A stretch of DNA of 64,000 nucleotides, taken from contig JAJEKV010000131.1 of assembly GCA_021234155.1 (NCBI GenBank), forward strand, positions 1,411,288-1,475,287, given 5' to 3'. This DNA comes from Isoetes taiwanensis. Taxonomy: Eukaryota; Streptophyta; Lycopodiopsida; Isoetales; Isoetaceae. Below, piece by piece: positions 19,172 to 57,600 of this stretch; the first letter of the stretch is position 1; every line of letters starts with the position of its first letter. The notes under the pieces are model-generated. The model searched no databases and was not told the origin of the DNA. It saw nothing but the letters and a program-made list of their open reading frames with translations. Made by a program: the position numbers and the translations under genes.

Positions 19172-19254
19172 AGGTAAAAGCACGCCGTGGTGTTCCAATT
19201 CGCCGTCCCCGTCCCCCAAAATGTGGCATTGCATCCACCACTTTTGTGGTATAA
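19172..19254 (+). repeat. Left terminal inverted repeat and subterminal palindrome of the 18.3-kb element
   Basis: The terminal 22 bp match the right end in inverted orientation. The subterminal word CCACTTTTGTGGTATAA at about 19238-19254 has a counterpart (CCACCTTTGTGGTAGAA on the minus strand) near 37432-37448. Confidence 0.75.
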
Positions 19255-20443
19255 AAGTATAATTATGGCACCGCCAACCGCCGGTATTTAAGAATAGAGT
19301 CCCTCGCCAAATGGGGAAATTCTAATTTCAAAAACTAAAATTCAAATTCAAATTCCTATTCTTTGGCCCCTTCCTCGTTTCTTTGCCCTACGCCCCGTTC
19401 TTTGGCTCCCTCCTGCTATGAAGCTCCAATCCATTGTGGATATGGATGTTAATGAGGTAATCTGTACAACAAACGGGCATTTGGGATGTGAGAAACGAAG
19501 AAGAACCAAGGAACAAGAAATGTTGAAGAAAAGATGCCGAGGAAAAGAAGAAGAGAAGAAAATTGGAGCTTAAGTGAATTGGCGTAAGGATCCGGTTCAT
19601 CAAGAAGTGCAAGCAAGAAACGCCATTGTCCTTAGTTTGCTAACGTCTTTCCATAAAACGACCAAAAGAATGGAGGATGGCACGAAGAAAGAAATTTTAC
19701 TTGATTTTTGAGGGATAAAACATTGGAAAAATTCATAGGTGAAGAATTAAAGGATTTGGAAGCCAAGAGCATCGTTATAAGGAGCCTCTGGGACTCCATG
19801 CAGGCAGTCAAACTCTCTACCAGCAATGACTGCCTAGCAGCCAAGAATAGTCACCTTGCAATATCTATACCACGCCGTCAGGATTCTGAAACAAGTGACA
19901 AAATCAGCCAGCGAGATCTTGGAAAGGTATTAGATGTTCACCCAAGAAACCTGCAAAAGGCAAAGAAAAAGAGGGAAGAGATCGATTACAATGGTGGGAA
20001 ATGGGTTTCTTACAAGAGGGCTAAAAGATTCGATGCAATTTGGATGAACATATAGAAAAGATTCAAAAATTTTGGATTGAGAACACGAGTGTCTCCTAAC
20101 ACAAAGGATGTTAGAACTAGAAGATTGGAGAGAAATGTAAAAGAGAAGAACATGCGCCCACTATTTGGAGGAATCACCAGGTTAGTTTATTTACATTAAT
20201 CATGTTTTCTTAGTTATGGTGCTTAGTATGGTGGTGCATGTGGTGGTTATTGTGTTGTACAGTGATTGTTGTACTGGATGCAGCATGTGAATTGTGTGTA
20301 GCTATAACTAATTGATCCTGAGATACAAATTTTTGTTGAATAAAGACAAGCTGTTGGAAAGTATGATATATTAAAAAGGATCTTACAAAATTTGGCTTTA
20401 CAAAATTTGGCTTTCCATTGAAAGCTCACTGCCAGAACTAAAT

Positions 20444-20995
20444 TTACATGCATGATTTCCTAAGCAAATGAAATGTCGGTATGGTCTGCTCGAGAACTGG
20501 TGCATCCAAAATTATTGTTTTACGCACTAAAGCATCTAAGCTTTCTGCAAATATCCCGGAATTTAACAGATGAGGTTTGCCGTGCTTCCTGCATCCCCCG
20601 GTGGTAAATGCACGCAATCTCGCTAGTAAAGTCCTCACTGTTGTAGTCGAGGCGGACAAGTGACAGAGAACAAATATATCACCCCCTTGCGGCAGCATGT
20701 AACATAAAGCTCATGAACTCGCCTAAGAGCTCTCTTCTGTCCAATCGACTCAAAGCATAGCCATTGAAGGCCCAAAGATCCAAATTTGTATGCCTTTAGG
20801 TTGGATTCGAATCAGCAAAGAAGGTGGATTTAGGCATATCCACCTTCGAGATTTATCACGCGAGCCCTTTAACATGTGTTGAATGCCCTCCTCGCTCACC
20901 CTACAATAGCCCGTGAGTGATCTCTGAACATCCCTCCTACCATGTTGCCGGAATGAACTTCTTCGATTTGGCGCCAATTGGGAATGAAAGGCCAA
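20444..20995 (-). pseudogene. Unrecognised coding-like remnant inside the transposase intron
   Basis: Minus-strand frames from 20995 down read SFRQHGRRDVQRSLTGY, SEEGIQHMLKGSRDKSRRW and GIQIWIFGPSMAML. They then shift to MLPQGGDIFVLCHLSAST and LLARLRAFTTGGCRKHG, to 20447. The amino-acid texture is protein-like, and the phrase around GGCCTTCAA resembles minus-strand sequence near 8900 in the 7.2-kb element. No domain is recognised. It may be a decayed passenger gene. Confidence 0.3.
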
Positions 20996-21169
20996 AATCA
21001 GATCGTAGGAACGAGGATTTAGGACCCGGATCCTTTTCTAATGATTAGAAGAGGAATGTAATTATTATTAGGGTGTACTAAATTTCCAGAAGTGTTTATG
21101 AGAGCAAAAGGCATTTTTTATGTCCGGGACGAAATAGGATAAAAGTGATGTGATGTGATGTGTGGTGTC

Positions 21170-21890
21170 GCGGATGGTGGTGTGGTGTGGTGTGGTGTGG
21201 TGTGGTGTGGTGTGTGGTGTGGTGTGGTGTGGGTTGCGTTATGTCCATGGTATCATGTGGGTGTGTGCATGTTAATGTATGATCCGGAGAATCTCCCCTC
21301 ACCCCACCACACCCCCATCTATCCCACCACCATAGACTACCACCACATCTTTTATGCACACACATCCCACCACATCCCCCACCACACCCCCCTCCACCAC
21401 CACCACCACCACCTCCACCACCACCACATCACACCACAATCCACAACACCACACCCACACCACCACCACTACACCCCCACCACCACACTCCCACCACCCA
21501 CACATCCACCACACACCACCACACCACCCCCACCACCACACTCCACCACACCACATCATAGCACCACACACCACACACACCACCACCACCACCACCACCC
21601 CCCACCACCACCCCCACCACCACGCCCCCACCACCACACCACCACACCACCCACCACACACCACCACCACCCCCCCACCACCACCCCCACCACCACCACA
21701 CACCACTCCACCACCCCCACCACCACAATCCACCCACCACCCCCCCCACCACCACCACCACCACCACCCCACCACCACCCCCACTACCACACACACCACC
21801 ACCACCCACCACCACACTCCACCACCACATGGTGTGTGGTGGTGAATGGTATGGTGTGTGTGGTGGGGTGAGGTGGTGGTGTGTGTAATG
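21170..21890. repeat. Complex CCA/GTG microsatellite with a central CCACCA block
   Basis: GGTGT units (21178-21232), then CCACCA/CACCAC tracts (21298-21828), then GGTGGTGTG (21829-21886). The outer G-rich parts can pair with the C-rich centre. It lies in the presumed intron of the transposase-like gene. The long His/Pro/Thr frames here are repeat read-through. Confidence 0.95.
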
Positions 21891-24299
21891 TACACACATC
21901 ACTATTAAGGTGCTCGCTTGCAGGTGAATATGATGAGTGTGGGGCATGGTATGGTGCATGGTTTGGTGTGGTATACACATCCTAACAGTTTAGTGTTCAT
22001 TTCATGCGGATGCTATTGTTCAAGAGGTTTACGGACCAACATCCGAAAATTAAGATTAAATCTTGAGCTTTTGAGAAGCTAAAACCCTGGTTTGTTGTGA
22101 AATTGAAGGACTTCAATAGTTGCTGTTGCATTCATCACGTGAGGATGCAAATGCTAGTGGATGGACTCAATGGGATGAGAACCAAACATCCGAAGAATTG
22201 CACTTGCACCTGCGATGTTTGTAGATCACATGAACTTGGTCAATCAGGCACACCAGCATAAAATTGCAAGTACAGGAAGCTTGTGGAGATCTATATTGTG
22301 TCCAAAGAGTGAATTAGATGAGTTTCACAAGAAGGCGTGCATCCTTGGAAATTGTGAGCTGTGTGGAATCAAGAAGTTTCAGACCTGTCCCATGGAAGGA
22401 AGTGGCAGTAGGAAAGTGAAATGGGAGTACATTGACTATGAAAAGATAACGCCTCGAAGATTACGTAGGAGATCCGACTCATCGAGACAATGAGACGCCG
22501 ACCCAAGGAGCTAAAAGATAAACCGAAAGAGCGTCTAAAAATCTTTCCAATCGCATAATTTCAGGTACCAATGGCGAGCAAAAGCAGTTTAAGGAGCTTC
22601 CGGAGAATCTCCCAGCAGATGCATGTCTCGGGCAGTGGATTTTGCGAGAACTATACATTCAAGGAACAAGAGGAGGTGCAATCGATGCGCTGGGTCAATA
22701 ACCAGATTACCATTTTGGTTCAAATAACATATCAGTATGACTCAGTGGCAGATGAGATTATCAAGGAAACACATTACTATGTATCAAATGATAGGGAACC
22801 GCGATACTTTGTTGGGTGCAACACCGCTTCATGAAGCACCACAAATATCCGGAGCGAGAAAGGAAGGGTTCCAAAGAGACATTATGTGTTTTCAGATGGT
22901 GCAGCATCTCAATTCAAGGCTTCTAGACCATTTTACTTTGTGGCTAGGTACACAAACGACACTGATGTCTATATGATGTGGAATTTTTTTGGTTCTAACC
23001 ACGGGAAAGGTGAACACGATGGCAAAGTTTCCGAGTTGAAGAGATGGTTAAGACAACTGCAATTAAAATACAGCAGCATAAAATTGGGTAATGCTCATGA
23101 AGTGGTAGAAGTTGCCGAAGAGATGTTTACTTGTGGAACATCCGAGTGGATGAACACATCTGAAACCAGTAAGAGGAAGAATATAAAAAGGTTCTTTTGG
23201 GAAGTCAAGGTGGAGGATATAGATAGAAAGAAAGCATGGGGTGCAGAAAGGATTTTGGACACTAGGCAGATCCATTGTGTACATGCATTCAATCCACGAA
23301 TCTCCATTGCGGTTTACTCCGAGGAACTTTCATGCTTCTCGCAGCTCTTGCTTGGATGGCATGTGGGGCAATTGTGTGAACAAGCACTACGTTGATGATT
23401 GGAAACTTCAAGTTATTGTACCATCCTCCAATGTGCATCTTGACATTGAGGACCAAAATCCAGCAGGGTCCCTTGTTCTCCTCAATCCCACGATGTTAGC
23501 GAGAGGCACTTAGAGTTGGTGATAATTTTGCTTTGTTGTTGCTCGAAGGGAATGATGAGGGTTCTGAATTTTGGATTTTTCCGATGTGCACAAAACCAAA
23601 ATGGATAGTGGAGAAAAAGACTTCCAACTCAATGGAACATGGTACCTACGCCGGTGATAGTGTCATAGAAGGTATGTATTACAAGAAGGGCTTAAGATCA
23701 ACCGTCGGCTATGATCTTTGCAGTAAAGGCGCCTTAGGCATAGTATTCACAACACGGATCTGTGCAATCGGACTTCACATGCCACCAACTAAGCGTCAAA
23801 AGCGAGTTTGTATATAGGTCGGATCCTTTAGATGAGGAGAAAATTTTCGAAATTTACCCAAGTTCTTTCGATGATGATGAAATGTAAAACCATTACGTAG
23901 TTTTGGAACTCATGTGAAGTTTTTTGCTTCAACCGGTGAAAATGAGTTTGTTTTGATTTCTTTTGAAGATTTGAATTCTTCTGAAACACTTGATTCCTTT
24001 GTTTGTGAGATGAATTGAATATGAATTTTCATTGAAATGAATCGAGGTTACAATAACAATTATGTACATAAGAAAGATATACAGTGATTTAAGTACGAGG
24101 TGACTCATGCACCTACATACTTCCCAATACATATGTTCCTCCTCGCCCAGCTTTTGTTGCTTCTAATCTTAAAACTTCAAGCATGAACACTCTAACATCA
24201 ACTAGATCCTGGTCTGAAATGTCCACAGCCTGCAGTTAACCACACTTTGTCAATAACAGAGTTTGGTTTGTCTGCTGCATTTAAGTTGACTTACTAGAT

Positions 24300-25078
24300 C
24301 AGGCAACAATATATTCACTCCTTTTAAGTACCCCCTCACAAATTTGTGCATAAACGAACATAATGCGAGGAATACATGAATGACCATCGGTTTGAAGAGG
24401 CGTTACGGAAATTTTCACAACATCCGAGGTTGTAAAGCTGAAATTATTATGTCAAGCAATTCCAGGAACCTGCACTCAAAGTTTGTTGTCATTGTGCCAC
24501 AACAGCAAAATGCAATGAGCAAGCACTAACCTCTCAATATGTCTGCTTCTGCCATGCAAGCCCGAGCTATCAAAGTGATATATCCCTGGTTTATATCTCT
24601 GTGCGAGACACGCGTGGCTTACAATCAGAAAACAGGTCCAGTGATGTCCATCACAAGCAGGCAAAAACATGTACTGGCACTTATCCAGATTCACATGTTT
24701 CCTTATTGTTTTGTAACTATTTGTGTCCTTGGACAATGTCGAGTGAAAAAGAGGGTCAAAGAAATGAAAGGGATGGCTCATTCCTTGGAGAATCAAGTAG
24801 TATTCCATGTATCTGCAAACATATGCATATCATCTGGCACAATCCTGATGATCACAAATCAGATGAAAGTATCACCTTGAGAAGAGGAGGATCAATTGAT
24901 CATTGAACCACTGCGTATCAGCTTCCAAAATTTTGATGTCGGTGGAGTTAATCACGACAGTTTCAGTTCCACTCAGCACCACTTCCAGATGTGTATTTGG
25001 CTTTAGATAGTCAGGGACTGCCGAAGCTCTATCATCTCTAGTTCTAAACACACACGAGAACATTTGCTCACAATCCAT
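24300..25078 (-). CDS. Ulp1-type (C48) cysteine protease, several exons, probably damaged
   Basis: Ulp1/SENP proteases cut SUMO-like modifiers with a His-Asp-(Gln)-Cys catalytic set. Exon 1 (25078-24876) contains DIKILEADTQWFNDQLI, the usual N-terminal motif of the fold. It ends CAAG/GTGAT, and a 63-bp intron (24813-24875) ends TTTGCAG. Exon 2 reads PACDGHHWTCFLI (catalytic His, about 24650) and IYHFDSSGLHGRSRH (catalytic Asp, about 24570). After a second intron comes TPLQTDGHSCIPRIMFVYAQ, with the oxyanion Gln and catalytic Cys (codon about 24374-24376). Plant MULEs and other transposons often carry such domains, so it is likely a transposon passenger. A stop at 24476 lies very near the second exon end; whether splicing removes it is uncertain. 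Confidence 0.65.
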
Positions 25079-25162
25079 TCAAATATTTTAAATTGAAAAA
25101 GTACAACACATATCATAGAAATTTTTTTTACTTATATTGACTTTCAAAGAGTTTTACAAGAT

Positions 25163-25894
25163 TCATTTATGAAAATACTTGTCGAGCATTTTCATGCAGT
25201 TGCGTGACTCTTCAGAATCCCACATGTTCCACATTTGATGTTCCTTCACATAAGCTGGCACACTTTCTGCAGCCAGAAGTCCCTCCAGCCATGGTTTGAG
25301 TTGCTCCAAAAGGAAATTGGAATCCAACCTGTCGGGAGCAAAACTATTTGGACATATCATTGTGTTCGGCTGGTTGGCAGAACCCTTATATCTGCTGTCA
25401 TCTATCAACAATGTGTTTGTCACCTGGTATCTCCAAAATTTCTGGTACACTTTGGACAGATCCTTAAGGAAAATTGGCTTATTAACCACTTTTAATTTTG
25501 TGTTGGTGCAGTCATCCTGATTCCAAATAAAAAGAAATCTGCCCTTATATTCCTGCAGCAACTTTCTCGTCAACAAGTCAACATTACTCTTAGCCATGCT
25601 GGACCACAATGCAATCTCAAATTTTGAAAAACACCATTCTAAGAACTCCTGAAATCCAGGCCTGGAAACTGCGAACTTTTGATGGTTCAATTTCTGGATG
25701 GTCACTTCTGGCTCGGCCGATGCAGGGATCCTCTCTTTCAAGTCATAAAACTTGCCTAAAACCCCATTAAAATCCAGAACAAGGAGAATTTCAGTTAACC
25801 TCTTGGTTTTTGTTGGTTGAGGTTGTATTGGACTCGTTAGCGATCGCATCTTGTCCGAGGATCCGGGGGTTTCTTTGTCAACTTCATCACACAC
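25163..25894 (-). CDS. FCP1/SCP-like HAD phosphatase domain protein
   Basis: An uninterrupted 243-residue frame with the FCP1 homology domain of HAD phosphatases, the type that dephosphorylates proteins such as the RNA polymerase II tail. Motif I is LLVLDFNGVLG (residues about 36-46): the nucleophile Asp is present but the second Asp is Asn, as in many plant relatives with DLNG. Motif II-like IALWSSMAKSNVD is at about 92-104, the conserved Lys region PIFLKDLSKV at about 140-149, and motif III NTLLIDDSRYKGSANQPN at about 160-177. The C-terminal helix region (LEGLLAAESVPAYVKEH) matches plant homologues. Start taken as the first Met; a short upstream frame (about 26060-25940, ATATGSHDEEIPSASDLGG) may be an earlier exon. 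Divergent from the Ulp1 gene by strand order but only about 85 bp away. Intact, so recently functional or captured. Confidence 0.8.
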   Translation of the reverse strand: MCDEVDKETPGSSDKMRSLTSPIQPQPTKTKRLTEILLVLDFNGVLGKFYDLKERIPASAEPEVTIQKLNHQKFAVSRPGFQEFLEWCFSKFEIALWSSMAKSNVDLLTRKLLQEYKGRFLFIWNQDDCTNTKLKVVNKPIFLKDLSKVYQKFWRYQVTNTLLIDDSRYKGSANQPNTMICPNSFAPDRLDSNFLLEQLKPWLEGLLAAESVPAYVKEHQMWNMWDSEESRNCMKMLDKYFHK

Positions 25895-26099
25895 ATCGCA
25901 TTTGGCTCATATTCACACCAAAACTTTTTACGGTGAAGGACCCGTCTGAGAATGAATCTCAAGGGAATTAATTTTCCCCCCTAAATCAGATGCACTAGGA
26001 ATCTCTTCGTCATGGCTTCCAGTTGCAGTAGCATTTATCTCTGCAACATAATTGAAATGAGGAAGACCACAGAAAAATACAAAAAAATAAATCATGTAT

Positions 26100-26990
26100 G
26101 TGGCATCGGTACTTACTTGATACGACTACGATTCGATTGACTATCAAATTTCATTTTGGAGTCTCCATGCCGTCGGCAAATAGGATTGACTTTGGAGTAT
26201 CAAATGGGGTGAATTCTAGGTACAACCGGAGGTATCTTGCGATCTCATAGCCCGGTCGGCGTGGATAACTATTGGATATCCTTGGTCTCAAATTTACGCA
26301 ATTCTGCAAACACTAAGTCGATGACCTGCGGACAACATCGGTAAACATTAGTTAAGGCACTTGTTTGCGGCGAATCTATATTGTTTGCAAAAGAGACAAA
26401 CAAAAGAGACTAAGCCGGCCGGGATGGAAGAGATCACACCCGACCCCAATTTTGGACCACAGCTTGTTTTTTACTTGTACCAAGTGTTGTTTTATGCCAA
26501 AACAACACAAAATGGTCCCAAAAGTCCACGTGGCCCGCTTATCCGGATTTGCACAAAGAGACATGTGGTTTTGGCGGAAAATTTCCATTATGGTTTTTGG
26601 CGAAAAAATCCGCAGCGTAGAAAAAATTAACATAGTTTTGTGAATTTTTGTCAACGTGTACTTTTCGCCGATGTTGTTTTTGTGGAACCATGCGTTGTTT
26701 ATCTTTAAAATCGCCGCGCATAGGTTTTAAATTTTACTACACCCTGAAAATTAAATTACAACACTAGAAATAAAGGACTACAAAGAAAAGAACACGTAGG
26801 AAATAGAAATATGATGTTTTCAAGTGTTCTTTTCCTCAATAACGACACGTCGTTTCAAGTGTTGTTTTTTGCAAAATTAAAAAATCACGCGCATGGCCTT
26901 TTTTTTATTTTATGAAACACTACATATGTTATTGAAATTTAGCTATTGTTTTCCTAAAATAAGGACATGTAAAAAAATAATATTATAACA
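26100..26990. other. No supported gene
   Basis: AT-rich sequence between the phosphatase and a repeat array. Overlapping frames at 26361-26721 on both strands have no recognisable motif. Confidence 0.5.
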
Positions 26991-27430
26991 TGTAGAAAAA
27001 GCGTAAATTTCTAATGTGGTTATTTAACTAATGAGATATTGACCGCGTGGCATACTTTTTAAATAATAAAACATTATTCTAGCTAATCAAATATGGACAC
27101 ATGGCATACTTTTTAAATAATAAAGCATTATTACTACTACGTGGAAAAATAAAGTATTGTTTATAATATATCTTCTAACAAATCAAATGTTGACACGTGG
27201 CACACATTAAAAAAAAAAAAATATTATAGACCACAATTTAAAAGTTAATATATTATGATTTAAAAGCTAATATGCATTTTAGCAAATAGAATATTAACAC
27301 GTGGCATACTTTCAAAATTAAAATGCACCATTACAACGCATAGAAAAAAACACATTTCTAATATATCCCCTATCCTAGCTATCCTAGCTAATGATATATT
27401 AACACGTGGCATACATTGTAAATAAATGTG
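26990..27430 (+). repeat. Degenerate tandem array with CACGTGGCATAC words
   Basis: Six or so diverged units each containing TAGCTAAT or similar, then ATATTGACACGTGGCATAC and AAATAATAAA (for example near 27050, 27105, 27195, 27300 and 27400). The spacing is irregular, 55-105 bp. No coding potential. Confidence 0.6.
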
Positions 27431-29900
27431 CGGCTCCATTTATTAAACATTGGTTATTGCAAAAGCGCAGTTTATTAAACATTGGTTATTGCAGGTTTGC
27501 AAGAATAGGCCACTAAAACTACAGAAATCATGAAGGCTCATTTTAGAACAACTCGATCCATGTTATTGATTCATCAAAGATAAACAAATGGCTACAAATG
27601 ATTCATCAAAGATAAACAAGAATATTTAATAATAGAATGGCAGAATAGCTTGTTTGGGCTCTTGAAGACCCTTTACCTATATAATTTTGCCACAAGGAAA
27701 CCCTTGCTTTCTTTTTTCAGTTTAACAAGCTTCATAATAGAGATCCATCTGCTATAATAGAGATCCATCTGCTACAACAACATGATTGATTGGGCACATA
27801 CCATCATCATATTTTAAATCCACTACTACCTTATTCGAAATCTTATACGAAATGTGTTTGCTTCATGAAGCTTCTATCATTGCCTTGAAACCTAGTTTCA
27901 AAATATTATCCCAACCGCACATCCGGAGAGGGTTTTATTGCCATAGCCGCGAGAATGTATCACGATTTTCGGCTTCCATATGCGAGATCGGAAAATTTAT
28001 ATGTTTGATAACTAAAGCCACAAAAGCCATATTTGAAGCCACCGCCATTCGTCACAATAGAACAAATCGACCATCCGCCAAGAAAATTCGGCCATGCCAA
28101 GTTAGAACAATTATTTTTGTATCAGTTGTTGTTAGATGAGTTTTTCGGCCAAACTGGTCATAGAAAGATCTTGCAAGCCGAGGATCCGATCCGTCTTTGC
28201 TCTTTAGAGGGCCGCTCAGCGCCACAACGACTATCACAATCCCTCGTTTCAAATAAATAGCAAGATCTTGTGATTGATTTGAAACAAAAAAAATCAAAAA
28301 GCAACAAGAAAGGTAGAATCGAGGGGAAGAGCTACCCGGATGCTACGGCCATAATCGGAGAAAAGTCCAGCGCCCGGCGCCACTACGATTCTTTGGAAGC
28401 GCCATCGCCATAGCCATGCGCGGCCATAGCCATAGCGGGTCACGAAGTCCAAATGGCGCCATCATGCATAGCCATGCGAAGGCGATGACAGTTTCTTCAA
28501 AATTGTAGTTGCAGAGGCAAAAACTAGGTAAAGGGGCACAAAAAGCACAAAACTTAGGCGGAAAATTACAAGGGTTAAATGTGCCTTTACTCTAAGCCAA
28601 TAAGATTAAAAGGAGAGGGATCAAGATCTGTGGACGTTGATCTCGGTTGCCTTTAATCTCACCACATTAATTATCGAGCCAATAAAATCATAGGATGTGG
28701 ATCAAGATCCTTGCCGCTCATCTTTACCGCTTGAATAAATGACAAATTACTATGCATGTATAAAAATAAGTTGTTTTTCATCCTAAGGAAAATATAGCCC
28801 CTATTAGTATTTTTTATTTTTTATTTTTTTTCCTAGACATTCTAACTCCAACTCTCCATTTAGCTATAATGTACTTGTTGAATTCAAATGTTGCTCACGC
28901 GGAATGGCCATGTCGTCATGGGCATTCCCATGCTTACACTCTCAAGGGATGAAAATAATCATTTTGGTTTTGGTGATTACATCGCATGGTATTCCTTTTC
29001 GTGCCGTTTTTGCTCAAATCTTTGAGCATGAATATCTCGGTCGATTGAGCTCGGTTGGTTCGGATGACTTGTATGAGGGTTCTAATAAGATGGATTAGAG
29101 GAGGAGGTCATCCATGCAAACCAAAACCTGCTCGAGTGCCTATGGATTCATTCGGAGGGTAAGAAATTTCCCTCAAAGTCGAATTACTGTGTTCTTTGCA
29201 TAGTTTGGGCAAAATGATTCCATCGGACGAATTTCTTAATTGGTGATTCCACCGGAAGGAATACCATCTTGAAAGAATCATCAAAACTAGGGTACGCATT
29301 ATTTTCACCCATTTTTCAATAGTTGAATTCCATCCACAAGGAGTTAAGAATCCCCCAATTGCTCTATCCCTTAGGACTTCGAGTTTCTTAAGTCATGTAA
29401 TGGAACGAAATTCCATTTCCCCTGTTTTGATTCACATGGACGACTCGTGAAGGGAGTTGTTAAATTTCTTGAGTTGTTGAATCTCGTGAGTCCAAATTGA
29501 GAGCTTCTAACTTCTGTGACACTTGAACAAACTAGGAGGAAAGGAAATGAATATGAGAAGGTTATATGCATGTCCAATAATACGGCCATATATAATACAA
29601 GGTAAACTTGTGGGCCATGATATGATCAATCCTTGGTCCTTTGTACTTCTAAAACGATTCTCCTGGATAACCCTTGAAACATTGTTTATAAAGTCGGCCT
29701 ACAAACCCATAGGAAATAAATGCTAGAGGTATAATGGGATCTTGATGTCGTTACACTTTGCAATACAAGCAAAGAGCATGGAAAAGATGATGTGACCCTC
29801 CAATTGGTGACATGGCATGCTAAGTAAGCAAGGTCAAGTTTTGACTAGGCCACTAATGAAACGATGTACATCTTTGGTTTTTCGTGGGGTGACGTTGGCA
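27430..29900. other. No supported gene; short duplications only
   Basis: It contains small direct repeats (GATTCATCAAAGATAAACAA at about 27569 and 27600; ATAGAGATCCATCTGCTA twice at 27737-27775). Frames at 27786-28297 and 28904-29726 have no recognisable domain. A CAT-AGCCAT-rich stretch lies near 28410-28480. Confidence 0.5.
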
Positions 29901-29924
29901 AATTTGGGTGACATGGCGTGTGGG

Positions 29925-31700
29925 CTCCAACATGCCAGGTGGCCCAAACATGCCACCTAGGCTCAAATATGCCACCTTGTCTCTAACACGCCAAGGTGGC
30001 TCAACCATTCCCACGTGGCATCCAACATGCCAATATGGCTCAAACATGCCATTTAGGATCCAACATGCCAAGGTGGCTCAAACATGCCACCTAGGCTCCA
30101 ATACAACCGGCTCCAATACGCCGGGCAAGGCTCCAACATGCCAAGGTGGCTCAACCAACTCTGCGTGGGCTCCAACATGCCACTTGAGGCTCAACATGCC
30201 AAGGAGGCTCAATCCAACATGCCAAGGTGGCTCAACCATGCCATGTGGGCTCCAGCGTGCCAAAGGTGACTCAAACACACCACCTAGGCTCCAACATGCC
30301 AAGGTGGCTCAAACATACCACTACGCCTCCATGCCACATGCCAAGGTGAACCCAACATGCCGTGGCTCAAGCATGCCACCCACCCAGAAGCCAACCCTGG
30401 CATGTTGGAGCCTCATGTGGCATGTTGGAGCTCACGGGCATGTTGGAGCCTGTGTGGCATGTTGAAGCCTAGGTGGCATGCTGGGTGGCATGTTGGAGCC
30501 CACGGACATCTTTGAGCGTAGGTGGGTATGTTGGAGCCTAGGTGGCATGTTGGAGCCACCTTGGCATGTTGGAGCCTAGGTGGCATGTTGGAGCCACCTT
30601 GACATGTTGGAGCCTAGGAGGCATGTTAGAGCTCACGTGGGGTATGTTGGAGCTCGCGGTGGCATGCTAGGGTCGCATGTTGGAGCCCATGTGGCATGTT
30701 GGGCGTGGGTGGCATGTTGGAGCCTAGGTGGCATGTGGGAGCTCACGTGGCATATTGGAGCCGGGTGGCATGTTGGAGCCTAGGTGGCATGCTAGGTGGC
30801 ATATTGGAGCCTAGGTGGCACGTTGGAGCCAACTTGGCATGTTGGAGCCTATGTGGCATGTTGGAGCTCACGTGGCATGTTGGAGCCCGTGTGGCATGTT
30901 GGAGCCTAGGTGGCATGCTAGGTGGCATGTTGGAGCCCCGTGGCATGCTGGGCGTGGGAGGTGGCATGTTGGAGCCTAGGGTGCATGTTGGAGCCACCTT
31001 GGCATGTTGGAGCCTAGGTGGCATGTTGGAGCCACCTTGACATGTTGGAGCCTAGGTGGCATGTTAGAGCACACGTGGCATGTTGGAGCCTGGTGGCATG
31101 CTAGGGTCCATGTTGGAGCCCATGTGGCATGTTGGGCCTGGGTGGCATGTTGGAGCCTAGGTGGCATGTGGGAGCTCACGTGGCATATTGGAGCCCGGCA
31201 TGGCATGCTAGGTGGCATGTTGGAGCCTACGTGGCATGTTGGGCGTGGGCGTGGCATGTTGGAGCCTAGGTGGCATGTGGGAGCCACCGTGGCATGTTGG
31301 AGCCTAGTTGGCATGTTGGAGCCTACGTGGCATGTTGAAGTAGGTGGCATATTTGAGCCACCTTGGCATGCTTGAGCCTAGGTGGCACGTTGGAGCCCAC
31401 GTGGCATATTGGAGTGTAGGTGGCATGTTGGAGCCTACGTGGCATGTTGGAGCTGATGGTGGCATATTTGAGCCACCTTGGCACGCTTGAGCCTAGGTGG
31501 CATGTTGGAGCCACCTTGGCATGTTGGAGCCTAGGTGGCATGTTGGAGCCTAGGTGGCACGTTGGAGCCTAGGTGGCATGCTAGAGCTCACGAGGCATGT
31601 TGGAGCCCATGTGGCATGTTGGAGCCTACGTGGCATGTTGGAGCGTACGTGGCATGTTGGAGCCTATGTGGCATGTTGGAGCTCACATGGCATGTTAGAG
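29925..31700. repeat. Large minisatellite (about 19-bp unit) with an internal polarity switch
   Basis: Dozens of copies of a unit like GGTGGCATGTTGGAGCCTA. From 29925 to about 30395 the units run in the reverse orientation (CCAACATGCCAAGGTGGC); from about 30405 to 31700 they run forward. The two blocks can fold on each other. Two more units occur at 34110-34155, past the foldback element. Long frames rich in Trp/Cys/Met or Pro/His across it are repeat read-through. Confidence 0.95.
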
Positions 31701-33798
31701 GCCGGACCGAGGAGGCGGACATCACAAAGGTTCTGCGGCGGGCTTTCCTACAAGTGCTCCTCCTGTGAGGGCAAATGCCAATGCTTCCTTCCTTGAGCTC
31801 CTGGTTTCCCATCCGACCGTTGAATCCACTCTTTAAGTAACCTGCTTCAAGCAGGTTCAAAAAAATTCAAGATCTGTCCGGGAGAACATATCAAACCGCA
31901 AAGTGTTTTGCAGTCGACCATGTAGAAAGCCACGTGCTTTGTCGTTCGGGCAGTACAAAGGCTCCGGAATGGAGATTTGATTTCGCCATATCGTCCGAAA
32001 CAGCGAAATTACCCTAGGGACCAAGTTACACGGTCATTTTTTGCAGCAAAAGAAAGACGAACCCTCTACATGGCAGTATTCTGCACCCTCCGCTAAGGCC
32101 AATTCACTACGAACGTGTTGGACATGAGCTACTTTGGCGCTTCATTGAGCAGGGGTGGCCTTCTGCCCACGAAACTTGGCCTCCAGGGTAATGTCAATAT
32201 TTCGAGTCCGTTGGCAGAGTCAGATCACAGTTCCGGAGTGGGAGAGTTGCCCGTCCGTGGCCAGGGACCTTCCAGAGAGGACCTTTGAGTCGAACTGCTT
32301 CTGGAAGGTTTTAGAGCTCCGTCTTCTGGCATCAACGCCCTCCCACTACCTCATGACATTGTGCAAGATCCTGGTCCAATCTGGCTAGGGTATGGCCTCC
32401 AAGACGTAAACCATGTGCCTTGCCAGGTTATTGTAGGGTTTACGTTATGGAGGCCAAAACGTGGTCAGTTGCACTTGGGACCTGGTGTACCTTTTTCGAA
32501 CATGCATGCGGAGCCATGGCAACTGAAATAACATAGTTTGGATCTATTGGCGATCCCGAATTATTCCAAAAGAAATTGCTACTACAAAATGTGTTCTTGA
32601 CTTCTAATTGCGACACTGGGAGGAGGATAAATCCAAACCCCATTTCGTCAGTTTCTATTGCTTCTTGTTTTCAGCTGCAGCTTCTCGACCATGTCTCAAG
32701 TGCAACTGAATAAAACTCGACCTCCATAACGTAAACCCTACAATAACCTAGCAATGCACAGGGTTTACATTTTGGAGGCCAAAACGTGGTCGACTTCTTT
32801 GATAACTAGGTGAACCATTTCTAAACATGCATGGGGAGCCATGAGAACTGAAATAACAGAGTTTCAATCTATTGGCCAACCCGAGTGACCCCAAACAATT
32901 TTGCTACTGCATAAGGCGCTCTACACTTTTAATTGCAAAACTAGGAGGAGAATAAATCCAAACCCCATTCTTGCAGTATTTACTGCCTCGTGTTTTCAAA
33001 AGCATTTTGCTCGACCATGTCCCAAGTGCAGCGGACAAAGCCCGACCTCCATAACGTAAACCCTACAATAACACGGCAAGGCCGCGGGGTTTACATTTTG
33101 GAGGCCATACCCTAGTCGGATGGACCAGGATCTTGCACAATGTCATGAGGTAGTGGGGCGTTAAAGCCGTAATATCGAGCCCTAAAACCTTCCGAAATGG
33201 AGTTCGACCAAAAGGTCCTCTGGAAGGTCCACGGCCACCAGACGGGCAACACTCCCACCCGAACTGTGATCGACTCACGCCAACGGACTTGAAACATCGA
33301 CATTACCACGGAGACCAAGTTTAGGTAGGCAGAAGACCACCCCTGCCCAGAAGCCAAAGTAGCCCATGTCCAAAGACGTTCATAGTGAATTGGCCTTAGA
33401 GGAGGTCTACATGGTCGAATCTTTGCCATGTAGGGGGTTCGTGTTTCTTTTGCTGCAAAAAATGACCATGTAACTTGGTCCCTAGGGTAATTTCGTTGTT
33501 TTGGACGACATGGCGAAGTCAAATCTCCATTCCGGAGCCTTTGTACTGCCCGAACGACAAAGCACGTGGCTTTCTACATGGTCGACTGCAAAACACTTTG
33601 CAGTTTGATATGTTCTCCCAAACAGATCTTGAATTTTTTTGAACCTGCTCGAAGCACGTTACTTGAATGGAGAATTCAACGGTCGGATAGGGAAACTGGG
33701 CTCCGGGGTTTTCTCTCCCGTAGGAGCGCTGGCAGAAAATTGAAGGCTGCCTTGGTAACCTTTCTTTGGTCCGTCTCCTGGATCTGGCCTCTTTTGTC
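31701..33798. mobile_element. Foldback element with about 700-bp inverted arms and a tandem-repeat loop
   Basis: The left arm (about 31701-32450) and right arm (about 33075-33798) are inverted copies of each other. Shared words include CCGACCGTTGAAT, CAAGATCTGT, AAAGTGTTTTGCAGTCGACC, GCACGTGGCTTTCTACATGG, CGGAATGGAGATTTGA and GCAGCAAAAGAAA (in one arm or its complement). The loop (32449-33100) is two tandem copies of an about 326-bp unit, each closed by a small palindrome CGTAAACCCTACAATAAC/GGGTTTAC. No transposase. The long arms suggest a Mutator-like foldback element. Minisatellite sequence lies on both sides. No target duplication was identified. Confidence 0.8.
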
Positions 33799-33929
33799 TG
33801 TTGAGGAAGCTGCATAAAGTCCTTGCCTGGTTCGATTTGGGGAAGGGGGTCAGCACTTTAAATTCTTCAAGATCCTCTATTTTATCCCTTGCTGAACTCC
33901 TCTACCAAAAATTCGAAAGGGTATCATAT

Positions 33930-34160
33930 TTCTTGCATGAAGGCCTAGTCATCATGTACACATCACCATCATCTAGCCATATCACCCAAAATTGGCCAAC
34001 ATCACCCGATGAAAACACCAAAGATGGACATCTTTTCATGTTTGGCCCAGGCAAAACGTGGGCTTGCTCAAGTGCCATATCCCCACTCGGAGTGCCTAGT
34101 AGGTGCCATGCCTGAGCCACATTGGCATGTTGGAGCCAACTTGGCATGTTGGAGCGTGGT
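33930..34160 (-). repeat. Inverted copy of the left minisatellite flank plus two minisatellite units
   Basis: Read on the minus strand, about 34040-33975 contains CATCTTTGGTGTTTTCATCG and GGTGATGTTGGCC, similar to 29868-29920 (CATCTTTGGTTTTTCGTGGG, GGTGACGTTGGC). The whole 29.8-34.2 kb block is thus built from inverted pieces. Confidence 0.55.
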
Positions 34161-34329
34161 TTAATGGTGTTTCTCTAATAATATCCAAAATGTTAGGATA
34201 TTGTTAGGATTTTGCGTGGTCCTATGACATTAATGCTTAGGGATTCACCCCCTCAAGGAATACAAATCAAATTCTTGATGGTTTTGTTATGCAAAAATAG
34301 GTGTTAAGTAATTGAAGTAGTTGAAGTAA

Positions 34330-34800
34330 CTTGTCTTACATGGAATACTAGTATAAGGACATGTGATCGTGCACGTGCATCACATGTAGCAAATCAAGTA
34401 CTCTGTCCTACCACTATAAAGACCCGTGATATGGGAGGATAGGACATGTAGAGAATCAAGTATTCTTTCCTACTTCTATAAAGACATGTGACAATAGAAG
34501 TATTATACGTGTCGTAATTCATGTATTCTTTCCTACAATGCCTTAGCAAATAAAGTGCTATGTCCTACTACTATAAAGACATGTGACATGGAAGCATAGG
34601 ACATGTAAAGAATCAAGTATTCTTTCCTACTTCTATAAAGACATGTGAACAGAAGTATAGGACATGTAGAGAATCAAATATTCTTTCCTACATCTATAAA
34701 GACATGTGACAATAGAATTATTAGACATGTAGAAATTCAAGTATTCTTTCCTACAGTGGATTGTATTATAAAATGACATGTCACAATAGAAGAAACTACA
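34330..34800 (+). repeat. About 62-bp tandem repeat, 6-7 diverged units
   Basis: CTATAAAGAC recurs at 34414, 34476, 34571, 34633 and 34694, with GGACATGTAGAGAATCAAGT and TATTCTTTCCTAC between. Periods are 62, 95, 62 and 61 bp. Confidence 0.85.
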
Positions 34801-35239
34801 AAACAACAGTGGATGTTTTAGTCCACTGAAAAAAAAACACCATTATCGAACAAAACCATACCTCCACAAATCCACATGTAGGATTCTTTGAAAACAGGAC
34901 ATGTAGACCTACCAAAACTGATGTTTTCAACAGTGGACCAAAAACCGGGGTGAGTGTGAGACTAAGCCAGGATGAAAGAGACCTGAGTACAAGCATCGAG
35001 ACTTCCCAAACCTTGCTTTCACCCCTCTTTGGACTTACTTGTGTCTATTGGTTCTTGTGGTACAACTCGAACACCAAAAGCCAAAAGCCATGTCTCAGTC
35101 ATAATGTGGCCACAATTGGGGCTGCAGCAGGTTCTAGAGTGTCTGCAAAACAAATTCAATTAGACGAGGGTTAGAGATGATAATATTTACCTCAAATGGT
35201 GTGATAGACATGGAATGTGATAATCGGTGACTGCGGATT

Positions 35240-37247
35240 CCGCTATCTGGCGGCAAACATTTTACCCTCCCATTTCAGACAACGTCCACAAAATGGACAA
35301 CCTTCATCACCCTCTTCTTCTGCCTCAGGAAGCATTGGAAGTGCAGGATCTAAAGGAGTGTCATGACCACTACGCTCAGAAAAAATCTCAAATCTTTGCA
35401 TTCGAGGTAGCAGCTCCAGCAGTAAGTCTTCACATGCCTTTAGCTCAATTTCCCGCCACTTTATTTAATCGCTTCAGCCCATGCAACACTGTACCATTTA
35501 GCTCTTCATCCTTTAGTTCGCTTACAACCCGAACACCCTCTGCTGCTTTCGGATTTGCTGTCATGATTGATTGCCATCTGTGCAAATCAGCTCTAATTTC
35601 TGATGCTTTATGCTCCATCAACTCAATCTTTCTTTTGATATCATTTTTCCTATCCTCGTTTGCTTGCAATCGTTGTTTGCATCTATCAAACCTAGCTGAT
35701 GTTGCAGCCAACCATTCCTTCACAAGTCTGCCATAGTCTCAGAAAACAAAACACTACGTATATGTCGACCTCCTAACATAGTAAGCCACGTCTTCGATGG
35801 AAAACCACAATCACACACCACACAACAAAGGTAGTCTCTACACACCACCACACACCACACCACACACAACATCAGACAAGACACACCACACAAACACCGT
35901 GGTGGTGGTGGTGGTGTCTCCCGTGGTGGTGGTGGTGGTGGTGGTGGTGGTGGTGGTGGTGGTGGTGGTGGTGGTGGTGGTGGTGGTGGTGGTGGTGGTG
36001 GTGGTGGTTGTGGTGGTGGTGTGTGTGTGGTGGTGGTGTGTGGTGGTGGTGAGGTGTGGTGGTGGTGGTGGTGGTGGTGGGGTGTGTGGTGGTGGTGGAG
36101 TGTGGTGTGGGACATGGTGGAGTGTGGTGATGGAGTGTGGTGGTGGGGTGTGGTGTGGTGTGGTGGTGGTGGAGTGGGGGTGTGGGTGGTGGTGATGGTG
36201 TGTGGTGGTGGTGAGGTGTGGAGGTGGTGGTGGTGGTGGGGTGTGTGGTGGTGGTGGAGTGTGGTGGTGGTGGAGTGTGGTGTGGGGACATGGTGGATGG
36301 TGGTGGTGTGTGTGGTGGTGGTGGAGTGTGGTGGTGGTGGTGGAATGTGGTGGTGGTGGAGGAGTGTGGTGATGGTGGTGGTGTGTGTGGTGGTGGTGGT
36401 GGAGTGTGGTGGTGGTGTGTGGTGTGGGAGTGTGGCGGTGGGAGATGGTAGAGTGTAGTGGTGGGAGATCGTGGGGTGTGGTGTGGGACATGGTGGATGC
36501 CAACAACTCACCACCACCACACATACCTCATCTATCGTTCTGGCATCCATTGCGCATCATAGAGACACAACATGACAATACAGCCAACATGATGCAAAAT
36601 GGTAGTAGACATACCTGATTCTTGAAGTGGATTTGATGTTACCTTTTCTGTGTTGATAGAAACAATCTAGATCAAGCTTGAGATTTTTTTCTGTTGTAAG
36701 ACAACTAATAATTGAACATACCTGCAATGGCATGTTTTGGTCTCAGAACATTGCTTTCTTTGCTTTGATTGTGAGTTCAGATTGAATGTGTGGTCTAGAG
36801 GAACCCGATTTGGTTATTTCCCTATCATCTTCATCATCCCCGCCACTTTTACTATTTTCCTCCTCGCCGTTGGATTTGCCTATGCTTTCTCTTGGGTCTA
36901 GAAGAACTCGGCCTCGGCTTTCTCATCTGAGTTTTATAATAATCCGGAAGCTCTTCCACCAACAGCCTCCCCTTTATATGCATAATAAGCCATCGCCTGT
37001 GTTCCGAGCCATTCCACCCCATGTATGTGGCTTCCACCATAATTCTTTTGTAAATTTGCATGAACTCTTTGTATTGTTCATTGCTCAGATTCTTCAACCC
37101 GCATAAGAAAAACATATGCCTTAATTTTTCAGTTTGAACAAAAACATTTGGGGAAAATACACGAGCTGATTTATTTGGAACTCTGTCACCCCAAAGCTTC
37201 TTTAGATCTTCGTGGGGCACAATCTCTTGTTTGAGGAGAGATTTCAT
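35240..37247 (-). pseudogene. Coiled-coil protein with C-terminal CxxCxxC motif, unknown family, exons broken
   Basis: First part 37247-36852: MKSLLKQEIVPHEDLKKLWG, then FVQTEKLRHMFFLCGLKNLS, MGWNGSEHRRWLIMHI and a basic tail. One frame over, it continues acidic (KSNGEEENSKSGGDDEDD, about 36855-36800). After a gap holding a GGT microsatellite (presumed intron) comes a helical exon 35723-35445: WLAATSARFDRCKQRLQANE, then KRKIELMEHKASEIRADLH. A frame change leads to KWREIELKACEDLLLELLPR, then DTPLDPALPMLPEAEEEGD and CPFCGRCLKWEGKMFA, ending at about 35240. It is on the same strand as the protease and phosphatase genes and next to the right end of the 18.3-kb element. A DNA- or protein-binding role is possible, but I recognise no family. 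Confidence 0.45.
35901..36490. repeat. GGT/TGG microsatellite
   Basis: GGT repeated almost perfectly (35901-36010), then GGTGGTGTGTGG variants to about 36490. Opposite in orientation to the CCA block at 21298-21828. The Pro/His/Thr or Trp/Val/Gly frames are read-through. Confidence 0.95.
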
Positions 37248-37428
37248 CGTAAAACCGTATGCTTCAATTCACTCCATTAGGGTTCAATCGGCAAGAAGCG
37301 GCAAAAAAGGAGGAAGAGGTGATTCTTTCTTAATTCAAAAGGTGGACAATGGCGTGGCATAAAATTCAAAATAACCGACGCCATTAATTCGCACTCCCGA
37401 ATCTCCGCTTTCGGTATGCACCACCCGA

Positions 37429-37502
37429 TTCTACCACAAAGGTGGTGCCAAAATGTGGCGTCAAAATGCACGTTTTTGATACACCACAGCGTGCTTTTAC
37501 CC
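37429..37502 (-). repeat. Right terminal inverted repeat and subterminal palindrome of the 18.3-kb element
   Basis: Inverted counterpart of 19172-19254. It starts GGGTAAAAGC on the minus strand at 37502, and ACAA follows outside at 37503-37506. Confidence 0.75.
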
Positions 37503-53554: not shown

Positions 53555-54595
53555 GAACACCAAATTGAACCTGCTGAAGAACATGAGGAGCTACTCGATA
53601 CACTAAAAGTATCAAATTCCTTTGCCATTCTTGCGATTATGCCGATGATCCCGGGTCTTGATAAAATTGCAGATGAAATCTGTAATAGTCCCATTGAGCC
53701 AACCTCCCTTCACCCTCAACTTCAAAACACACCTACATATACATCCATCACACATCCCATCCAAAACATTGCATTACCATTTGAAACTGCACTTGACCCC
53801 CTTTCCTTATATGTTGACCTCTCTGAAACTTCTGAATCATCCTTACCCCCTACCAAGAATGCAGCCATTTCCCCAAAGATAGCTCAGCAATTGCAGGAAT
53901 TAATGACAGCCACTGAGGTATTGCCAGATCCTTCTAAACAGATGTCAATGGTCACAAAAGATAGGGATGAACATATCAGAAATATATCAAATGGTTGGGA
54001 ACACAATTTGCTGTACATAGATCATGAGCACACAGTAGCAACCGCAACAGCATATGATCAGCATCAATCAGAGGAAACAACAGGAAATAATACAGCATCC
54101 TCCCCACATCAGTTGAGATCTTCAAAGACACCACATTTGGAACAAGCTAATACCAGGCAAGATCTTTCCATTCTAAAAGTTGCAGATAATTTATCACTTA
54201 ACTGCTCTAATGTGGATAATAATGTGGATAATAATGTAATTACCCCCACAAACTCCACTGATCCTTCTTTAGCTGAGACTGTAGACCATGAATGTTGCAA
54301 ATCCAAATTCTGGCAGTGCTCTCACTCTAACATAATAGCTAAAGGAAATACCTTTGTAGCACCTAACTCTGACAAAGAAAATGCCCCTGACTTCCATATT
54401 TCAAACACTGATAACTTATGGGATGGAGATATTTATTTGCTTCCTCATCAAAACAATCCTACTGTTGACCACCCAACAATCCAATCCACCAAAAGAAATA
54501 GAAAGAAAAAGGGGAAAAACATTCTTGGCCAAATCCAAAACACTCCTGCAGCTAATACTCGACAAAAAACCAAAAGTGCTAACAAATTCCACTAG
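53555..54595 (+). CDS. LINE ORF1 C-terminal part (5'-truncated)
   Basis: An open frame of about 346 residues entering from the insertion point (EHQIEPAEEHEELLDTLK, then the first Met at 53639). It is Ser/Thr/Asn/Pro-rich and low in structure, with an asparagine-repeat patch (NVDNNVDNNV) and a basic end (KRNRKKKGKN, then RQKTKSANKFH). Plant L1 ORF1 proteins end in such a disordered tail after their RNA-binding domain and zinc knuckle, which are missing here because of 5' truncation. It stops 34 bp before the ORF2 start codon. Confidence 0.6.
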   Translation, partial: EHQIEPAEEHEELLDTLKVSNSFAILAIMPMIPGLDKIADEICNSPIEPTSLHPQLQNTPTYTSITHPIQNIALPFETALDPLSLYVDLSETSESSLPPTKNAAISPKIAQQLQELMTATEVLPDPSKQMSMVTKDRDEHIRNISNGWEHNLLYIDHEHTVATATAYDQHQSEETTGNNTASSPHQLRSSKTPHLEQANTRQDLSILKVADNLSLNCSNVDNNVDNNVITPTNSTDPSLAETVDHECCKSKFWQCSHSNIIAKGNTFVAPNSDKENAPDFHISNTDNLWDGDIYLLPHQNNPTVDHPTIQSTKRNRKKKGKNILGQIQNTPAANTRQKTKSANKFH

Positions 54596-54629
54596 CCATC
54601 TCCTTTTCTGCTTTATTCCTAAATTCTCC

Positions 54630-57600
54630 ATGAAGATTCTCAGTTGGAATCTCAGAGGTATCAAAGGCCCTTTAAAAAGAAGAAGGGCTATCTCTCAGAT
54701 TAGAAGTTATGATGCAGATATCATCCTTCTTCAGGAGCTAAGACTTCCTAGCTTTGAATGCTCAAACTTAGCAGATTGGATTGGCCCTGGCTTTTCATCC
54801 ATTTGGATTGAGGCCAATGGTACCTCTGGTGGCATTTGCATTATTTGGAGACATCTTATCCATAGCTATGTTCACACTAGCCCTTGCAGGTCCTGGCAAT
54901 CTGTCATCTACAAGCATAATGATCTCAGCTTTGGAATTATAAACATCTATGCTTCCACTGATTCAAGAATTAGAGCCAACACTTGGCCCATGGTTAGCAA
55001 TTTCATTGCATCTCAGACCTGTGACACTTGGATCATGGCAGGGGATTTTAATAACACACCTACTTGGGATATGAAGATAGGAAAAAATCTTAACATGTCA
55101 TCTGAAGAGACTTTACAATGGGATCAAATGCTTGATAGGCATTTCTTTCAGCATATCCCCTCCTCTACCCCTGCCTACACTTGGTCCAACAAGCAAGAAG
55201 GTAATAGCAGGGTATATTGTGCACTGGACAGGTTCTACATAAATAACACTCATAATGATATTTGGAATAACTGTCTAGTTAGTAGTGATGAGGCCACATC
55301 TATATCTGATCACCAGCCTCAATTTTTCACTATCAATTACACTCTATCTGTTAAGAGGCATGGCAATACCCCTTTTAAGCTGAACTGCTCCCTTCTTGAC
55401 TCTGATAATTTCTGCACAGATTGCATTGCCTTCTATGGAACTCTCCCCAAAGTTAGATCCACAAATTCTATGAAATCCTTTTATACCAACATAAAAGACT
55501 CCAAAACCTGGATCAAACAGTGGTCGAAGAATTTACATGATAGTAAGCAAGCAGAGAAAAGTGCCTATCTAAAAGAAATGAAAGAGGTAAGATTGCAGCT
55601 GCAGGAGGACCCCCTTAATGTTGAGCTTCATTGGCAAGAAGAAAATCTAGAAAGGGTTATCAAAACAGTTGAAGAGATGGAAGCAAAAGGAGCATCCATC
55701 AGATGCAAAATCAAGTACCTTTCCAACATGGACCATGGAAATTCCAAGTTCTTTTACAGAGTTGCCAAGTCTAGACTTCTAAAGAGTCAACTGACCACTG
55801 TCAAAGATGACAATGGTAATATCTACACAGATCAAAAAGAAATTTCCAATTTCTTTTGCTCCAATTATGAGAAAATCTTCTTTCAACCTATAGACAACTC
55901 TGTGCAAACTGTTGAAGCCAAATGTTTTACTGATCTCATTGAAAATAGTGGTCTCCATAGTAATCTGTTCATGTCCCCCTCCACAGATGCTATCCCCACT
56001 GCAGATAAGACTTTCTCTACCCTCAAGAGTCTTGCCAAAGGCAAAAGCCCTGGCCCTGATGGTCTTCCACCCGAATTCTACATTAGATTCTGGGATACTA
56101 TTAAAAATGATTTTATGCACATGATCAAAGGTTTTTGGAATTCCAACCATCTACATCCTGCTCTATCTTCTGGCCTTATCACTCTAATCCCTAAAGTTGA
56201 CAATCCTCAGACTTTCTCAGACTGGAGGCCTATCTCTTTAACAAACTCCACTTATAAGGTCTGTGCTAAGATTATAGCTACCAAGGTAAAAGCTCATCTT
56301 CAATAGATCATCAGTCAGAATCAATCTGCTTTTCTCCCAAACAGATACATCCTAGATAACTATATTGCAGCCATGGAGGGAATGCATTGGATCAATCTAA
56401 CTAAACAAAATTGCATCTTATTGAAGTTAGATTTTTCAAAAGCCTTCGACACTGTAAGGTGGAATTTCTTAGAGTACTCCCTGCAAAAACTTGGCTTCAA
56501 AGATTGAAAAATTATCAAGCTAATCTTGGGATTAAATTCTAGATCCCAATCAACTGTTCTTGTTAATGGCTCCCGAGGATATTTTTTCCCTCTAGCTCGA
56601 GGTGTCAGACAAGGCTGCCCACTAGCCCCTTATCTCTTTAAAAGGTAGCGAGAGATGCTCACTAGAGTGATCATTCATCATCAATGCTGTGGGAAACATA
56701 GTTGGTGCGAATCTTCCTGATAATACTTCCAATCTTTCCATTCTGCAATATGCAGATGACTCCTTCAGTTTCCTCAAGAATGAGTCAGGCATCATTGCCA
56801 ACTTCTTGAACACAATTCACATCTTTGGAGCTGCCTCTGGGATACATCTTAACAGAAATAAATGCACAATTATTGGGGATTTAGATGTTGGCGATTATTC
56901 TTGGCATCAAGTGCATCAAATCAACTGAGATAACCAACCTTTTGGGTATGCCTTTGTCCCTCAATCCCAAATCTCAAAGGATTGTCTCGAGAATCGAGAA
57001 AAAGCTAGGCAATTATGGCAATTGCCTTTCACTTGCGGAAGAACCATAATTGCCAATTGTTCTTCTTTGCCTCCCACATTTATTACTCCTCCGCCTGTTG
57101 GCTCCAAAATCCATCTATCAACAAATTGAGAATTGTTAGAAACTTCATCCGGAAAAATCACCATATGGTTAATCTGAAAACTGTTACTAGAAGCAAGAAG
57201 CGTGGTGGCATAGGATGCAAAAACTTGGCTCTTCAAGGTTATGCTTGGTTGGAAAATATATCCGAAATCCCTGTTCTTGCAAAAATAACCCAGCCACATT
57301 ATTTATCAAATATTGGCTTTCTTAGGATCATCCTAAAGGGCATCCCTCTATCGTCATGATTTGCCTTCTTGACTTTCACAACTCAAAACACACCAAACAT
57401 ATCTCCTCTTATGAGAGGCATTATCTGGCACGGAACAAAGTTCACATTAACTTTGAACATTCAAGTACTCAAAATAGCCACTTTCGAGCACAAGCATTTT
57501 TGGAATCCCAATCTTTCCATAGACAATAGTACTCCTTTGGCTATCAAACATCCTATACAAAAAAGTGGACCGGACTATGGTATTTCAAAGCTTGGTGATT

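Follow-up and report, generated by a model that had tools for sequence, protein, structure and literature searches.

A large, abundant family of gene-carrying DNA transposons with 4-bp target site duplications in Isoetes taiwanensis, probably belonging to Sola or to a closely related sister group

Does the region between positions 19172 and 37502 of a 64,000-nucleotide stretch of the Isoetes taiwanensis genome (assembly GCA_021234155.1, contig JAJEKV010000131.1; this whole stretch is called the window below) represent a single giant transposon, and to which superfamily would it belong? An earlier note, made from the sequence alone, had described the region as an 18.3-kb gene-carrying DNA transposon with 22-bp ends and a 4-bp target duplication, belonging to an undescribed or poorly described plant superfamily. 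We searched the source genome (1,658,258,908 bases, 1110 contigs) and found that the region is a genuine mobile DNA element of a large, abundant family in I. taiwanensis. The copies in the genome bear out a real, large, gene-carrying DNA transposon with these tips and this duplication; its size and the superfamily assignment had to be revised.

The 22-bp terminal inverted repeats (TIRs) of the window copy, AGGTAAAAGCACGCCGTGGTGT and GGGTAAAAGCACGCTGTGGTGT, are identical at 20 of 22 positions as reported in the earlier note. The termini are GGGTA and ACAA lies directly outside both tips. The subterminal palindrome shared by the two ends was also recovered. It has the form ACCAC-N4-GTGGT at both ends of the window copy, and among loci L001-L038 ACCAC-N3..5-GTGGT occurred in 8 of the 9 left ends and in all 30 right ends found. 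When the window was scanned for chance inverted pairs, allowing up to 2 mismatches in the 22-mers and requiring the same 4-mer outside each, 1484 pairs were obtained, 43 of them remaining after leaving out low-complexity words. The 20 pairs listed from these 43 are the 19172/37502 pair, one at 4047/11272 that is AT-rich, and 18 whose starts (29953-30222) fall within a tandem array. The same scan found no pair in ten simulated sequences.

The left-end query matched at all 40 scored places (the best 40 of 492 first-look candidates). In 38 of these the match starts at query base 19-24, base 23 being window position 19172, so that homology ends at the proposed tip. The two matches without a stop at the tip come from the window and from C974, where a diverged duplicate of the window locus lies. 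For the right end 40 of 40 scored places matched as well (the best 40 of 763 candidates), and left and right tips were paired in at least 9 of the 40 listed places, always inverted. We compared 20 genome stretches: 11 span eight copies with both ends listed and nine extend inward from the right end only, one of the latter (L052) also containing a left tip. Together with L052 and the window copy this gives ten two-ended copies. The flanking duplication consists of exactly 4 identical bases in all ten, with nine different sequences (ACAA, ATAT, TGAT twice, GCTT, TCTT, AACC, ACAT, ATGT and CCAA). Seven of the ten, without large inserts, measure 8450-10013 bp, and the other three 12561, 14641 and 18331 bp. 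Pairwise identity is 88-92% among six copies of 9.2-10.0 kb and the 9.8-kb core of the window copy. The family has been mobilised repeatedly. One copy (L046, C1045:4607000-4613500) is broken by long frames which by eye read like the reverse transcriptase of a long interspersed nuclear element (LINE); these frames may lie behind the 12.6-kb length of that copy.

An empty site had been proposed as a further check, and uninterrupted sites were found for both copies tested, one of them the window copy. The C1055 copy is inserted in a Copia-like reading frame (judged by eye). Its flanks, joined with one ATGT, matched at 40 of 40 scored places (the best 40 of 814 candidates). The target spans were about 10 bases longer than the query and therefore the junction itself was checked: a 35-base pattern across it occurred at 57 places with at most 3 mismatches, 5 of them exact, and the reversed control at none. 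The joined flanks of the window copy matched at 22 of 22 candidates, five of them end to end across the joined site with 84-91% identity. Another two matches lie on C974 with 28 kb between them and correspond to the flanks of a further filled locus. This locus (C974:17109421-17137933, left end in L002) is a second filled copy of the window locus, about 87-89% identical. Since it has both ACAA (L002) and the nested insertion's left junction (see below) in common with the window, a segmental duplication probably took place after both insertions.

How much of the 18.3 kb belongs to the element itself? Over most of their length, positions 19172-26433 and 34958-37502 have counterparts in about 9-17 of the 20 stretches; only 2 of 20 extend as far as the final bases ahead of 26433. 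Between 26434 and 34957 at most 2 of 20 stretches matched, chiefly at a tandem array; a long array with a unit of about 19 bp occupies 30398-31700. The 4-bp flanks of this segment, AGAT and AGAC, are near-identical and the target site is intact in L040 and L041. The left end of the insertion is itself repeated, matching at 40 of 40 scored places (the best 40 of 1074 candidates), and 38 of these matches start at query base 15-35, where base 25 is window position 26434. The segment is an independent, high-copy 8.5-kb element with a short flank duplication. A transposon unit of 18.3 kb is therefore ruled out: the core measures 9.8 kb, and the remaining 8.5 kb were inserted separately. The figure of 18.3 kb holds as the span of the window copy but not for the element, and nested repeats do add to the length, as the earlier note supposed.

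Table 1. Features of the transposon copy in the window (positions are those of the window).
Feature	Position	Strand	Basis or remark
Target site duplication, left, ACAA	19168..19171	.	window sequence; single ACAA at empty sites
Left TIR, 22 bp, AGGTAAAAGCACGCCGTGGTGT	19172..19193	+	starts at 19172; genome copies
Subterminal palindrome ACCACTTTTGTGGT	19237..19250	+	66-79 bp inside left tip
Probable N-terminal transposase exon	19588..20210	+	open block; 209 amino acids in 7-copy consensus
Open block between transposase blocks, PDFWRFIPNSRQIEEVHSGNMVGG...	20301..21018	-	part matched in 13/21 compared sequences
(CCA)n-type array, inverted copy of the 35.7-36.6 kb array	21023..21828	+	also in 7-copy consensus
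Cys-rich transposase block, CCCIxH ... CTCTCDVC	21986..22459	+	consensus and copies
Transposase catalytic block (candidate): VVDFAENY (D1), FSDGAASQFK (D2), WNFFGSNHGKGEHDG (D3 or E3)	22579..23884	+	consensus and copies
ULP1-like block with putative catalytic Cys, PLQTDGHSCGP in copies	24253..24404	-	motif by eye
ULP1-like block with putative catalytic His and Asp, GHHWTCFLIV...YHFDSSG	24529..24829	-	motif by eye
NIF/FCP1-like phosphatase-fold block, PF03031, 247-amino-acid open frame	25163..25906	-	Pfam E 3.5e-16, above cut-off
Nested insertion, 8.5 kb, separate later element	26434..34957	.	own inverted tips CACACCC/CACACTC, flanks AGAT/AGAC
RING-H2-like block	35143..35607	-	putative 62-bp GT-AG intron in 7-copy consensus
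(TGG)n-type array, inverted copy of left array	35696..36640	+	also in 7-copy consensus
First block of right-end gene, MESELN... in other copies, MKSLLKQEIVPHEDLKKLWGDRV	36708..37283	-	consensus and copies
Subterminal palindrome ACCACAAAGGTGGT	37433..37446	+	57-70 bp inside right tip
Right TIR, 22 bp, reverse complement GGGTAAAAGCACGCTGTGGTGT	37481..37502	-	stops at 37502
Target site duplication, right, ACAA	37503..37506	.	window sequence

Gene blocks were read from a consensus of seven copies and from single copies (Table 1). The transposase-like gene of the earlier note was recovered on the plus strand as a candidate of the DDE/D type. Its first block resembles a helix-turn-helix only by a Pfam match below the cut-off (E 0.017), and the Cys-rich block had no Pfam match in the two copies scanned. 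In copies L039 and L045, acidic residues chosen by eye around DFAENY, FSDG and HGKGEHDG are spaced D-x84-D-x40-D (or x38-E), from which we infer the catalytic triad of a candidate DDE/D transposase. A fragment from D1 to D2 matched at 150 of 150 scored genome places, with some open frames longer than 500 amino acids. In the window copy the D1 motif is out of frame, the longest frame covers 22835-23395 and the transposase frames are broken; the NIF frame is open. With its transposase frame broken and an 8.5-kb second element inside, the window copy looks dead. Frame breaks in the copies may partly be assembly errors, since the assembly used nanopore reads (PMC8566536).

Three further genes had been claimed inside the element, and three further gene blocks are recognisable, RING-, NIF- and ULP1-like; the minus-strand blocks may form one gene or several. 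On the minus strand the order from the right end inward is the MESELN gene, RING-H2-like, NIF/FCP1-like and ULP1-like. The ULP1-like blocks matched Peptidase_C48 below the Pfam cut-off (E 0.0065), the His, Asp, Gln and Cys motifs being assigned by eye, and the best PDB match, a deubiquitinase, was weak (E 0.047). For the NIF block no match was found in the PDB. The RING-H2-like block reached E 0.0011 at best in Pfam, below cut-off; omitting the 62-bp GT-AG stretch from the consensus adds two Cys pairs to it (CCSPSC, with a spacing other than the usual C-x2-C). The block at 20301..21018 gave no Pfam match above cut-off.

We then assessed whether these blocks travel together. Four blocks were searched in the genome and the 150 best places evaluated for every one of them; first-look candidates numbered 6249, 6270, 925 and 1545 (loose counts), and pairs were counted within 12 kb. 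Because each list holds the best 150 (or 40) of many, all fractions are lower bounds. The transposase was accompanied by NIF in at least 49/150 places (opposite strand in 49/49, the offset in 41 being no more than 700 bp from its median, 2.9 kb), by ULP1 in at least 53/150 (opposite strand in 53/53, 48 near the median) and by RING in at least 37/150 (opposite strand in 36, one not; 28 near the median). Among the accessory blocks the pairs NIF-ULP1 (at least 64/150), NIF-RING (at least 60/150) and ULP1-RING (at least 50/150) were all on the same strand. The left tip was found with NIF in at least 11/40 places, 10 of them on the expected strand. The four blocks and the tips recur as one unit, and where they are listed as neighbours, arrangement and orientation are conserved with hardly an exception. 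Outside the element, a 648-amino-acid frame at 54360-56306 carries an endonuclease/exonuclease/phosphatase domain (PF03372, E 2.4e-11) and is probably a LINE.

Which superfamily does this unit belong to? Target site duplications measure 8 bp in hAT and 3 bp in CACTA and Harbinger elements. Together with MULE, whose duplications are 7-12 bp (PMC10741241), these superfamilies were rejected on the length of exactly 4 bp in 10/10 copies. Mutator elements with ULP1, some of them in plants (named in PMC2836005), are likewise DNA transposons with a ULP1 domain but differ by their 7-12 bp duplications (PMC10741241). Among plant TIR superfamilies, duplications of 4 bp point to Sola or Ginger (PMC10741241). 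In the literature, Sola is described with a DDD transposase, 4-bp duplications, a size of mostly 2-9 kb and sometimes more than 15 kb, and TIRs of 11-1124 bp, and is present in moss and ferns (PMC10741241, PMC9033089, PMC6786969, PMC6890710; size and TIR ranges from PMC10741241). The family studied here has 4-bp duplications in all ten two-ended copies, borne out by the empty sites of two copies, a length of 8450-10013 bp in 7/10 copies and TIRs of 22 bp. It resembles Sola of seed-free plants (Sola1 of Physcomitrella, SOLA of Azolla, Sola of Ceratopteris) in duplication, size, TIR range and host group; a RING/NIF/ULP1 set is not mentioned in the excerpts of their descriptions. We therefore favour a DNA transposon of about 9.8 kb that moves by cut-and-paste and belongs to Sola or to a closely related sister superfamily, an assignment we hold to be fairly probable. 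It draws on the length of the duplication, on the range of sizes and on exclusion, Sola being compared by description only. The undescribed superfamily of the earlier note was not supported as stated, its list having omitted Sola.

The nearest published parallel is Sola1-1_Ec32 of Ectocarpus (PMC12477816), a 21.5-kb Sola-1 element with an accessory gene opposite to the transposase strand. It differs in residing in a brown alga and in its accessory protein, which is ParB-like plus DNA methyltransferase rather than RING/FCP1/ULP1. Giant families in that study mostly contain nested insertions (PMC12477816). Sola2-Fanzor of dictyostelids (PMC3627910) shares 4-bp duplications and passenger genes and has TIRs of 12-21 bp, but its passenger is Fanzor1 and its duplications are AT-rich (AWWT in D. 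fasciculatum; PMC3627910).

Several observations weigh against the favoured explanation. Only ATAT among the ten duplications fits the AWWT target preference of Sola2. No transposase match was obtained when the separate transposase blocks were scanned against Pfam; the best stray match, to NID with E 0.0059, fell short of the cut-off. Either E or D could be the third acidic residue, and the AlphaFold models were unusable (mean predicted local distance difference test scores of 29.7 and 59.7). Codon-position counts were without clear protein constraint for the transposase or the other blocks (13-18 sequences per block). Most of the best 150 transposase places had no listed partner, which can be read neither way.

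Part of this evidence suits a new, unnamed DDE/D superfamily that has only the 4-bp duplication in common with Sola. The missing Pfam transposase match in the blocks scanned and the target sites other than AWWT agree with it, as does the finding of no homolog of the transposase candidate in viral_contigs, genome_contigs, plasmids and PDB. These collections are viral, prokaryotic or of solved structures, and absence from them argues weakly, whereas duplication length, size, tips and host range fit published Sola. We consider a new superfamily possible but rather unlikely.

A different question is whether the RING, NIF and ULP1 blocks were picked up from the host by chance and serve no function, riding on elements moved in trans as in Pack-type transposons. 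The NIF block, which plainly matches a cellular family in Pfam, reads DFNGV without the second Asp of the usual DxDxT motif. Frames are broken in the copies examined, and codon-position bias is not clear: shared-variable sites by codon position numbered 4/7/10 for NIF and 11/17/19 for RING. This test was run with one control, its ULP_b row is invalid (6 stops in frame as cut), and it is uninformative on the accessory genes because the transposase likewise lacks a bias. Against passive capture, the blocks stand in the same order and strand with the transposase at dozens of listed places, many with open frames, and omission of the 62-bp GT-AG stretch from the consensus supplies the final Cys residues of the RING block (CCSPSC, not C-x2-C). 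We thus regard chance capture as doubtful.

Ginger transposons combine 4-bp duplications with ULP1 in many Ginger1 transposases, and a ULP1-like block is present here. Ginger1 has TGTNR ends, TIRs of about 40-270 bp and duplications of CCGG (75%) or CCGT/ACGG (24%), and differs further by an integrase-type transposase with ULP1 as its C-terminal domain (PMC2836005). The GGGTA ends, the 22-bp TIR and the duplications (0/10 CCGG or CCGT/ACGG) rule out Ginger1. Ginger2 has TIRs of about 50-180 bp (PMC2836005) against 22 bp here; no match to a Gypsy-type integrase (rve, H2C2) was found in Pfam with the separate transposase blocks, no unbroken whole protein being scanned, and the ULP1-like block lies opposite to the transposase strand, making Ginger very improbable. 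A chance inverted repeat or segmental duplication instead of a transposon, to which the diverged duplicate on C974 with the same insertion might point, can be dismissed: ten two-ended copies with nine distinct 4-bp duplications, the empty sites and the absence of pairs in ten simulated sequences leave it next to no credence.

For the favoured Sola-type element we infer cut-and-paste transposition rather than copying. A DDE/D (RNase H-like) transposase made from the plus-strand gene would bind the 22-bp tips and perhaps the subterminal palindromes, excise the element and insert it where the target has been cut with ends staggered by 4 bases, and gap repair would then produce the 4-bp duplication. 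As a guess, the RING-, FCP1- and ULP1-like proteins could aid expression or transposition via ubiquitin/SUMO tags or transcription. A bolder version appears quite unlikely to us: an unnamed DDE/D lineage, very abundant in this lycophyte, with a standard opposite-strand module of RING-H2, FCP1/NIF-like and ULP1-like proteins that would let it evade silencing by acting on ubiquitin/SUMO marks or transcription.

Large DNA transposons that carry passengers are already known. No RING, FCP1-like and ULP1-like set combined with a Sola-like transposase came up in the literature searched, in part as excerpts and with subscription papers and Repbase outside its range, and within that range a search combining Isoetes, Sola and transposon returned no paper. 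The repeat section of the Isoetes genome paper, in the part available, names only long terminal repeat elements among transposons, and its main text contains neither "Sola" nor "DNA transposon" (PMC8566536). With its clean ends, 4-bp duplications, empty sites and recurrent accessory set, the family offers a defined system for testing ubiquitin/SUMO-type passengers, and as a probable Sola relative it would parallel, in a plant, the giant Sola-1 elements known from brown algae.

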